Source: Deltaproteobacteria bacterium (lineage in GTDB: Bacteria > Desulfobacterota > Desulfuromonadia > Geobacterales > Pseudopelobacteraceae). Taken from it: a DNA stretch of 48,781 bases. A program made the position numbers and the translations under genes. The notes under the pieces were generated by a model. That model was given only the letters and a program-made list of their open reading frames with translations. It did no database searches and was not told the origin of the DNA. Numbering within the stretch: position 1 is the first letter of the stretch; each line of letters starts with the position of its first letter. The stretch covers positions 1 to 48,781 of the forward strand of contig JAJYCS010000008.1 of the NCBI GenBank assembly GCA_021778115.1, read 5' to 3'. This document shows, piece after piece, positions 12,471-15,376 of the stretch.

Positions 12471-14117
12471 ATGAATAAGCAGGTATTCGTGATCGGGCAT
12501 CGTAACCCCGATACCGACTCAATTGCATCGGCCATAGCCTACGCGGCCTTCAAGCGCAAGCTGGGGTATGACAACGTCACCGCCGCCATGGCCGGCGCAC
12601 CAAATCCCCAGACTAGCTATATCTTGAAGCGTCTCGGCGTAGAACCGCCGCTGTATCTGGCGGATGTTCATCCCAAAGTACGGGATCTCCTTGCCCGGCG
12701 TCCTGTTACCGCTGCTGCCGGGATGCCGCTTAAGGAGGCCCTGGAACTCTTGCATCGTTATGCCATCCGGGTGCTGCCGGTGGTTGACGGGGCAGGGGCA
12801 CCACAGGGGGTGGTATCGCTGCTCAAGCTGTCGGAGAAGTATCTGGTGGCCGGCAGCGACCGGCGCCGCGGGGTGGACAGCTCGCTGTGCAACCTTTCCC
12901 GCTCTCTTGAAGCTACGCTTTTGACCGGCACGTTGAGCGAGCAGGTGGAACACCTGCATCTGTTCATAGGTGCCATGACCAGACAGTCGTTCAGCGACCG
13001 CATTGCCGGCTACGATACGGCTAACCTCCTGGTGTTGACCGGGGACCGGCCATCGATCCAAGAGGCCGCCATCGAGGCTGGGGTGCGTCTGCTGGTGGTG
13101 ACCGGCGGTTTTACGCTCACCGACGATCTGCTGTCGCAGGCCCGCAGTAAGGGGGTGACGGTGATATCAACCCCGCACGATACCGCTTCATCCGCCTGGC
13201 TTGCCCGCCTTTCCACCCCGATCTCCTGCTTCATGGAGCAGAAATTCGAGCGGATCGGCGTGGCTGAACCGCTGGAGCATCTGCGGCTCAAGCTGTTGCA
13301 TTCCGGCGAACCGGCCGTAGTGGCAGTGGAGGAAGACGGTTCCATTGCCGGAATCGCCACTAAATCATCCCTGCTTGCTCCGATCCCCTACGCCCTGATC
13401 CTGGTTGATCACAACGAGCTTTCCCAGGCGGTCCCTGGCGCCGAATCGGTGGAGATCCTGGAGGTGATCGACCATCACAAGCTGGGCAACCCGACAACCC
13501 ATCAGCCGATCACCTTTATGGCCGCCCCGGTGGGCAGCACCTGTTCCATCGTTGCTTCGCTCTATCGCGAACGCGGCCTGGAGCCGGAGCAACCGATTGC
13601 CGCCTTGCTCTTGGCCGGTATCATGTCCGACACCATTATCCTTAAATCTCCCACCACCACCTCGCGCGACCGTGAACTGGTGGCCTGGCTTGAACCGTTG
13701 GCCGGGTTCGATCATACCTCCTTTGGCAGGGACATCTTCGCCTCCTGTAGCGGGTTCTCCACCCATGGTAGCCTTGAAAAGGCGATCCGCTCCGATTTTA
13801 AGCAGTTCACCGCCGGTGAGACGGTCTTTGGGGTAGGGCAGGTGGAGGTAGTGGGCTTTGATGAGTTCTACGAGTTGAAGGAACAGCTGCGTGAGCTGTT
13901 GCGGCAGGTCAAACAGAGCGACAAGCTGGATATGGCTGGACTGATGGTGACCGACATCTATAGTGAAACCACGCTTTTTCTGGCCGAAGGGAAGAACGAG
14001 CTGGCCCATCTAATGGGGTATCCGCAGTTGGAACCGCATCTGTATGAACTGAAAGGGGTCATGTCCCGTAAAAAACAGATGCTACCGCATCTGTTGAAGG
14101 TCCTGGGGGCGCTGTAA
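12471..14117 (+). CDS. Manganese-dependent inorganic pyrophosphatase, family II with CBS and DRTGG domains
   Basis: A 548-residue protein of the CBS-PPase type. The N-terminal DHH part starts VIGHRNPDTDSIASA, with metal ligands H10, D14 and D16. It is split by an insert holding two CBS motifs (RRPVTAAAGMPLKEALELL; KFERIGVAEPLEHLRLK) around a DRTGG-like segment (residues about 180-250, VVTGGF). The catalytic part resumes with LVDHNE, EVIDHHKLGN, SDTIILKSPTTT, and ends in a DHHA2 domain. Family II enzymes hydrolyse pyrophosphate; the CBS pair usually makes activity respond to adenine nucleotides. A GTAAGGAG site precedes the ATG. It is cotranscribed with the HD-GYP gene. A GC hairpin (14131-14155) without T-tract follows the stop. 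Confidence 0.9.
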   Translation: MNKQVFVIGHRNPDTDSIASAIAYAAFKRKLGYDNVTAAMAGAPNPQTSYILKRLGVEPPLYLADVHPKVRDLLARRPVTAAAGMPLKEALELLHRYAIRVLPVVDGAGAPQGVVSLLKLSEKYLVAGSDRRRGVDSSLCNLSRSLEATLLTGTLSEQVEHLHLFIGAMTRQSFSDRIAGYDTANLLVLTGDRPSIQEAAIEAGVRLLVVTGGFTLTDDLLSQARSKGVTVISTPHDTASSAWLARLSTPISCFMEQKFERIGVAEPLEHLRLKLLHSGEPAVVAVEEDGSIAGIATKSSLLAPIPYALILVDHNELSQAVPGAESVEILEVIDHHKLGNPTTHQPITFMAAPVGSTCSIVASLYRERGLEPEQPIAALLLAGIMSDTIILKSPTTTSRDRELVAWLEPLAGFDHTSFGRDIFASCSGFSTHGSLEKAIRSDFKQFTAGETVFGVGQVEVVGFDEFYELKEQLRELLRQVKQSDKLDMAGLMVTDIYSETTLFLAEGKNELAHLMGYPQLEPHLYELKGVMSRKKQMLPHLLKVLGAL

Positions 14118-14246
14118 CGGTTATGAGTTTGACCGGCCGGGCTTTAGGGCCGGTCGTGCCGAAAGTTGGGATCATCTCTTTTTTGTCGTATCAAAACGGT
14201 CAAGACACATGACCTGCTTCCCAAAGTTTTATCTCTGAAATTTCCC

Positions 14247-14286
14247 TTGCAAATCTGAATATAAGTATATACTTTAAATATATATT
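14247..14286 (+). promoter_or_regulatory. Promoter and palindromic operator region of vapBC
   Basis: TTGCAA (14247-14252) is followed after 15 bases by TATACT (14268-14273). Two palindromes overlap or flank this -10: AAGTATATACTT (14263-14274) and AATATATATT (14277-14286). Paired palindromes at the promoter are the usual binding sites for VapBC-type complexes that repress their own operon. The region is much more AT-rich than its neighbours. Confidence 0.5.
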
Positions 14287-14300
14287 CAATGGGGGCGATC

Positions 14301-14528
14301 ATGAAAACTGCAAAATTATTTCAAAATGGGCAAAGCCAAGCTGTCAGACTGCCTAAAGAGTTTCGTTTTGACGACAGTGAAGTGTTCATTAAAAAGACCG
14401 GCAATATTGTTCAGCTGATTCCCCGCAGCGATTCGTGGAATTCCCTGTTTGGGAGTCTTAAAAAGTTTTCCCGTGATTTCATGGTTGAACGTGTACAGCC
14501 AGAGCTGGACAAGCGGGAGATTTTCTGA
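14301..14528 (+). CDS. vapB: VapB-type antitoxin (AbrB/MazE fold)
   Basis: A 75-residue protein. The N-terminal part MKTAKLFQNGQSQAVRLPKE is the standard swapped-hairpin DNA-binding motif of VapB/MazE antitoxins, and the C-terminal segment after residue 45 would wrap the toxin. GGGGGCG lies just before the ATG at 14301; an ATG at 14289 lacks a ribosome-binding site. The stop overlaps the vapC start by one base (TGATG), as in many coupled toxin-antitoxin pairs. Base composition is clearly AT-richer than the flanking genes, a sign of recent acquisition. Confidence 0.9.
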   Translation: MKTAKLFQNGQSQAVRLPKEFRFDDSEVFIKKTGNIVQLIPRSDSWNSLFGSLKKFSRDFMVERVQPELDKREIF

Positions 14529-14929
14529 TGAAGCTGATGCTCGACACCAATATCTGTATTTATATTATTAAGCAACAGCCAGTTGCTGTGCTGAAACGTT
14601 TCATTGAGTATCAGATAGGCGACATAGGCATTTCTTCAATTACACTTTCTGAATTACGCTATGGAGTTGCCAAGAGTACACACCAAGATAAAAATGCCAA
14701 AGCCCTTGATGCGTTTATTGCTCCTTTAGAAGTTGTCTCTTTTGATGAAGAGTCCGCTCATGTTTATGGTGAAATTCGAGCAACTCTTGAAAAGGCTGGC
14801 ACTCTAATTGGTGCTATGGATATGCTGATTGCTGCACATGCCGTTTCGTTAGGAATTCCTCTGGTAACTAATAACACTCGCGAATTCTCACGTATAACAT
14901 CCCTTAATGTTATTGATTGGATAAATTAG
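14528..14929 (+). CDS. vapC: VapC-type PIN-domain toxin ribonuclease
   Basis: A 133-residue PIN-domain protein. The acidic metal-binding residues are in place: D6 (MLDTNICIYI), E42 (TLSELRYGVA), D98 (IGAMDMLIAAHA), and the NNTREF motif at 115-120. Family members are Mg-dependent endoribonucleases, often cutting initiator tRNA or rRNA, held inactive by VapB. It is complete and of normal length, so the pair is probably functional. Codon use is AT-rich like vapB. The stop codon lies 12 bases before the attC-like element, the spacing seen in integron gene cassettes. Confidence 0.92.
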   Translation: MKLMLDTNICIYIIKQQPVAVLKRFIEYQIGDIGISSITLSELRYGVAKSTHQDKNAKALDAFIAPLEVVSFDEESAHVYGEIRATLEKAGTLIGAMDMLIAAHAVSLGIPLVTNNTREFSRITSLNVIDWIN

Positions 14930-14941
14930 TCTTTCTCTCCT

Positions 14942-15048
14942 GACTAACGGGGGCGGCCTCTGAGCCGCCCCCGCAGGGGTCGGTTCCAGAGGTTGGTTCG
15001 CCCGCCTGCGGGCGGATCAACCGACGGCTCAGAGGCCGATTGTTGGAC
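14942..15048 (+). repeat. attC: attC-like integron recombination site following vapC
   Basis: A 107-base imperfect palindrome. The outer boxes are GACTAAC (14942-14948; one mismatch to RYYYAAC) and GTTGGAC (15042-15048; perfect GTTRRRY). Inside them, 14954-14967 (CGGCCTCTGAGCCG) is the exact reverse complement of 15025-15038. The centre holds a 15-bp hairpin with two G-T pairs (14991-15005 with 15008-15022). The unequal spacers between outer and inner boxes (5 versus 3 bases) fit attC architecture, where asymmetry sets strand choice. Size is within the known attC range and orientation relative to vapC is correct. A competing hairpin (14949-14957 with 14964-14972) could act as a terminator. 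No integrase gene is present in the window. Confidence 0.62.
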
Positions 15049-15376
15049 GCTCCTTCTTCTTTCCGCCTAATGCGCCATTCTCTGCAAAGCGCTGTCAATT
15101 GCGGCTTCACAGGTTTTTTACTTTTTCAGCTTTTTCTGATTTTTTTGCCTATTATTCGCTTTTTTCGATTGTTACTGTCCGTCGTTCTGCTTCACCAGTT
15201 TCCTACTATACCCACTTTGTACCGATCAGGACGGTGAAAGAACCAAAGAGTCCGCGGGATTTTCAAGAGTGACAACAACAGAAAGGTAGTATTTAGTTTG
15301 ACCTCTGTCGACCTACCTGGTATCTTAACAACCATTACATGCTGTTCCAGGAAGATCACGAGTTTACGATACTTGT
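15049..15376. other. Gene-free stretch with T-rich block and helicase leader
   Basis: No supportable gene was found. The part 15114-15180 is strikingly T-rich on the plus strand, with five runs of five or more T residues. Further on, AGGTAG (15284-15289) can pair with CTACCT (15313-15318), which probably belongs to the structured leader of the downstream helicase gene. A candidate promoter TTCTGC-N16-TATACC lies just after the T-rich block but is weak. Confidence 0.4.

Follow-up and report, generated by a model that had tools for sequence, protein, structure and literature searches.

A vapBC gene cassette as the probable remnant of a decayed chromosomal integron in a Geobacterales genome

The vapBC toxin-antitoxin pair next to the pyrophosphatase gene ppaC is very probably the surviving cassette of a decayed chromosomal integron, with both genes lying antisense within the cassette (a probability of about 0.9 for the reading as a whole). 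Positions 14112-15272 of the window, the complete stretch of 48,781 nucleotides analysed here, would be what is left of a canonical chromosomal integron formerly located between ppaC and a DEAD-box helicase gene. The integrase gene intI would have occupied the right end, reading rightwards on the plus strand, and the cassette array would have extended leftwards on the minus strand as far as the ppaC stop codon. A deletion would have taken attI, the first cassettes and all of intI save its last 21 codons. Followed along the minus strand, the remnant would consist of the attC site of a lost neighbour (R' box at 14942-14948), the vapBC cassette (14118-14947) and the cassette's own attC site (14171-14112). 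The window is contig C4 of a 2.29-Mb draft genome in 107 contigs, with an estimated completeness of 99%.

The vapBC genes and their flanking attC sites

The reading frames of vapB and vapC are both intact and follow the type II VapBC order, an AbrB/MazE antitoxin and then a PIN toxin. The cassette that holds them is AT-richer than its surroundings, as the original prediction had noted, with a GC content of about 39% in 14250-14749 against 55-63% around it. Its coding and upstream features are as follows.

14263-14287, plus strand: AT-rich element ahead of vapB that hardly varies among four aligned vapBC cassettes
14301-14528, plus strand: vapB, antitoxin with a MazE/AbrB-type DNA-binding domain; translation might begin earlier, at 14289
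14528-14929, plus strand: vapC, PIN-domain toxin, assigned by sequence to the tRNA(fMet)-specific endonuclease group

Profile and structure matches agree with these assignments. The vapB product matches PF04014 (28.7 bits) and, above cut-off in both cases, NF047862 (105.3 bits) and NF040493 (89.7 bits). The vapC product matches PF01850 (74.5 bits) and NF047863 (179 bits, cut-off 140), and aligns over its full length with the solved VapC 3tnd (E 1.4e-30). A plasmid collection yielded weak vapB matches in Acinetobacter and nothing else. The AT-rich element is probably the cassette's own promoter and operator. Because the pair would be expressed autonomously from this putative promoter, its orientation and its distance from an integron promoter would be immaterial.

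The attC sites were sought with R1, a covariance model derived from 32 attC sites that lie next to long integron integrases, with no vapBC locus included, and run across the whole window without filters. In the alignment of the 32 sites, the R'' box ends in AAC, the R' box starts with GTT, and the L arms form seven pairs that bracket a single extrahelical base of the 5' arm; six of the seven pairs show compensatory changes. The two best R1 matches in the window lie on the minus strand, one on each side of vapBC.

14112-14171, minus strand: attC of the vapBC cassette itself, R'' TCCCAAC, R' GTTACAG; best R1 match
14942-15048, minus strand: attC of a lost neighbour cassette, R' GTTAGTC at 14942-14948, R'' uncertain; second-best R1 match
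14118-14947, minus strand: vapBC gene cassette, 830 bp from crossover to crossover, genes antisense to the cassette direction

Over the whole 48.8 kb, the left site scores 31.8 bits (E 2.2e-5) and the right site, matched at 14942-15002, scores 25.1 bits (E 7.2e-4), and the third-best match reaches 14.4 bits. The best R1 score over 571 kb from other loci without such integrons is 12.1 bits, and ppaC loci that lack an integron give no R1 match. The score of the right site is modest. In a whole-genome R1 scan, the left site is listed and the right site absent among the 150 of 2167 candidates that were scored. A generic attC model, R2, was drawn from classic and phylum-wide arrays of other integrons and finds no significant match in the window, at neither of the two flanks. 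This silence is uninformative, since R2 also misses almost all array-supported attC sites of the long-integrase family. The covariance search suggested with the original prediction is thus significant with the family-specific model and silent with the generic one.

The palindrome that follows vapC is real and not a product of chance. It had been described as a 107-base structure with exact inner arms, and this description stands: GACTAAC starts 12 bases past the vapC stop codon, GTTGGAC ends at 15048, and the 14-nt arms CGGCCTCTGAGCCG and CGGCTCAGAGGCCG at 14954-14967 and 15025-15038 match exactly. For 14942-15048, the folding energy of the minus strand is -37.8 kcal/mol (z -7.8), a value equalled by none of 200 shuffles. 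In a scan for boxes plus stem, the palindrome scores 20.3; the highest score among 60 dinucleotide shuffles of the entire window was 17.4. Together, the R1 match and the fold bear out its identification as an attC site. Its R'' box might be either GTCCAAC at 15042-15048, for a site of 107 bp, or an inner box near 14992-15002, for a site of 57-61 bp. A position-weight test leaves the two R'' arms tied (7.1 against 7.0); R1 chooses the inner box, and the 107-bp version folds far better.

On the other side of the pair, the motif GTTGGGA at 14164-14170 had been offered as a weak left boundary that could be chance. It is instead the R'' end of a second and stronger attC site. The R' box of this left site overlaps the ppaC stop codon and agrees with the consensus at four of seven positions, being degenerate past GTT. 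The predicted G|TT crossover is present in the R' boxes of both sites. By analogy with integron biology, a working integrase would have bound the folded bottom strand of attC and cut it between G and TT, and the cassette would have moved as a circle.

That the palindromes are transcription terminators, or members of an unrelated repeat family with attC-like boxes, is extremely unlikely. A GC-rich local hairpin also forms just past vapC, and attC sites have been discussed as weak terminators (PMC9892861), both of which would suit such an explanation. Against it, the hairpin has no T-run behind it, no second copy of the palindrome was found in the genome, the two same-strand attC-model matches fall exactly at the cassette limits, and an integrase stub adjoins. 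An Rfam search of the window gave no match.

The integrase stub and the locus in congeners

The end of an integron integrase gene lies a short distance to the right of the second attC site.

15207-15272, plus strand: last 21 codons and stop codon of an integron integrase gene (3' stub), YTHFVPIRTVKEPKSPRDFQE

In a search with 300 nt, the stub proved 85.7% identical to residues 458-478 of an intact integrase in a congener, G009 (E 5.7e-11), and the sequence downstream of the stub is the same leader as in that genome. Integrase 3' ends at unrelated loci in two other genomes (G004 and G017) match this tail too, so the stub match does not depend on the helicase context. The original prediction had found no integrase in 48 kb; this holds for an intact gene and fails for the stub. 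The right palindrome and the stub are just 158 bp apart, suggesting that attI was probably deleted.

The congener G009 preserves an intact version of the locus. Its ppaC and DEAD-box genes enclose an intact long integrase of 478 aa, which reads towards the helicase gene, and the same interval, as far as the end of ppaC, holds attC sites scoring 47.8 and 26.1 bits. The left attC of the window is homologous to the left end of this integron, the 26.1-bit site. The G009 integron also holds a segment of about 5 kb between two attC sites (L058:4002-9068), unusually large for a cassette; as read from translations, it carries emrAB-like efflux genes and, towards the integrase, an old-yellow-enzyme-like gene. 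Three further congeners (G011, G005 and G007) supply the empty site that the original prediction had proposed to look for: the integron is missing entirely, and a gap of about 50 bp is all that separates the DEAD-box leader from the ppaC end. In another three (G003, G008 and G010), an unrelated stretch of about 1.1 kb takes that position.

These comparisons bear on the explanation put forward originally, in which a lone vapBC cassette was captured at a secondary (non-attI) site beside ppaC, in sense direction and with its own attC downstream of vapC. The window has no intact integrase, and where the array ends, at the ppaC stop codon, the R' box (GTTACAG) is degenerate in a way that could suit a secondary site. 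Secondary-site capture would leave the locus free of integron-platform traces; here the integrase stub sits to the right in canonical orientation, and in G009 the same position, between the same gene neighbours, is taken by a complete integron of this type with a homologous left attC. In addition, the attC inherited with the cassette is the one upstream of vapB and not the one downstream of vapC. Capture of a lone cassette is contradicted by this evidence and is very unlikely. The locus, with its 21-codon 3' stub, lacks the functional intI of a complete integron, and its two same-strand attC sites, 0.77 kb apart and accompanied by no functional integrase, correspond to a CALIN (at least two attC sites, no integrase).

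Decay of the integron need not by itself have immobilised the cassette, and an integrase encoded elsewhere in the genome might still move it in trans. The genome does contain other integron integrase genes (a long one on C15, a classic one on C36 and a remnant on C19), and the stems and the GTT/AAC boxes are kept in both vapBC attC sites. All of these genes are damaged, however. The C36 integrase is split by a frameshift, the C15 integrase lacks the residues that match 172-266 of an intact homologue, which make up most of the core-binding domain, and C19 holds integrase fragments only. Remobilisation in trans is therefore unlikely, given that no intact integrase was found in the 107-contig draft, from which a copy could be missing. 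The loss of intI, attI and the other cassettes would have left the vapBC pair stranded at ppaC.

Some of these loci retain cassette material. The C15 locus has two attC sites, and two toxin-antitoxin cassettes with attC sites lie to the left of the C36 integrase. The C36 cassettes (L049 1600-4320) encode an RHH/PIN-like pair and a BrnTA-like pair, and the end of the array carries a transposase-like gene, all identified from translations.

The long integrases of Geobacteraceae have features of their own. They carry about 150 extra N-terminal residues (L058:668-2101 and others). The G009 protein contains two Phage_int_SAM_4 stretches (Pfam), which might reflect a duplicated core-binding domain. 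In 16 of 27 long-integrase loci (L058:2132-2494, L050, L108, L109, L110, L112, L117, L247-L250, L255-L257, L259 and L261), the start of the integrase gene has as its divergent neighbour a conserved gene of about 120 aa that matches DUF5710 only weakly; none of the classic integrases tested has such a neighbour. This gene may be a fixed part of the long-integrase integron platform.

Direction and limits of the cassette

The direction of a cassette must be taken from its attC site and not from the gene that it carries. The long integrases, at 455-500 aa, score above the TIGR02249 cut-off, and cassette arrays sit on their 5' side. Beside intact integrases, most cassette ORFs point away from intI, which is the canonical layout and fixes the direction of the array. 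Both attC sites of the window lie on the strand opposite the vapBC genes, which is the arrangement that a plus-strand intI on the right-hand side predicts. The extrahelical base, the arrays beside intact integrases, and the points at which homology starts and stops all indicate that vapBC is antisense in its cassette. An inverted layout, with cassettes pointing towards intI, was considered and rejected: it had come from taking the attC direction from vapBC, and the ORFs beside intact integrases disproved it.

Relatives of the pair reveal the limits of the cassette. Related vapC genes turned up at 80 loci when bacterial genomes were searched. In eight Geobacterales loci (L146, L148, L153, L156, L158, L159, L160 and L163), an attC on the antisense strand starts 7-14 nt past the vapC stop codon. 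In a contig labelled Nitrospirae (L157), the attC starts 29 nt past it, and two loci (L151 and L165) have weak attC matches at the same place. Other vapC relatives of similar identity have no such attC after vapC. In L148, L160 and L163, a minus-strand attC site flanks the pair on each side. The L156 locus aligns to window positions 14114-14950 at 79.7% identity, a span that covers the whole cassette and nothing more, with the crossovers within 4 bp.

The same comparison assigns each attC to its cassette. The left attC has a clear homologue in L148, namely the attC that precedes vapB there, and the sequence beyond the right crossover differs among relatives. A shared left attC and a variable right flank imply that the left site belongs to the vapBC cassette and the right site to its neighbour, placing the cassette at 14118-14947. 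The palindrome after vapC is accordingly not the pair's own attC, as had been proposed; that role falls to 14112-14171, upstream of vapB. The broader proposal that vapBC forms an integron-type gene cassette is upheld by R1 matches at both flanks and by cassette limits that recur in relatives. The closest relative of the pair (L061/L158, G004:C62, about 25313) is 90-96% identical. This copy has lost about 60 bp spanning the end of vapB and the start of vapC, and on that account looks broken.

A probable decay series and comparison with known systems

The locus is found intact in one congener, ruined in the window and absent in three congeners, offering material on the persistence of toxin-antitoxin cassettes during decay. 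A single attC-like palindrome can in this way be traced to a vanished integron rather than to a stray capture. What the locus contributes is a clear series of states at one place and the corrected direction of the cassette.

Toxin-antitoxin cassettes might outlive their integrons because their loss harms the cell, in which case vapBC would have held its attC-bounded piece in place. This idea is tentative, with the odds leaning somewhat against it. A contig labelled Desulfobulbaceae (L150:2258-4060) carries a vapBC pair together with another that is vapBC-like, attC-like sites and an integrase 3' stub of 28 codons, and is an independent case of the same kind of integron ruin. The two other broken integrons of classic type in the present genome, the C36 and C19 relics, keep mainly toxin-antitoxin cassettes. 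As pointers, these three relics suggest that toxin-antitoxin cassettes are the last to go.

Clusters of attC sites without an integrase, termed CALIN in IntegronFinder, are regarded as degraded integrons (PMC9024848). The present locus resembles such a degraded sedentary chromosomal integron in having an attC cluster, two sites within 0.9 kb, and no functional integrase. It differs in that one whole cassette is left and its origin can be read directly, since the locus retains an integrase 3' stub and survives intact in a congener.

Integron integrases have been described in Geobacter before. At least two intI genes are reported from each of G. metallireducens and G. lovleyi (Nemergut et al. 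2008, PMC2426708), one of the Geobacter genes falling near a betaproteobacterial clade and the others in a Deltaproteobacteria clade (PMC2426708). The long integrases considered here may belong to that Deltaproteobacteria clade. The earlier study covers intI genes, to which the attC family, the antisense vapBC cassette and the relic locus are added here.

Toxin-antitoxin cassettes are familiar from the superintegrons of Vibrio (reviewed in PMC8876359), with parD/E3 as an example (PMC11014356). In contrast to those systems, the cassette described here resides in a Geobacterales host, encodes a VapC of predicted tRNA(fMet) type, and remains where the integron has otherwise vanished.
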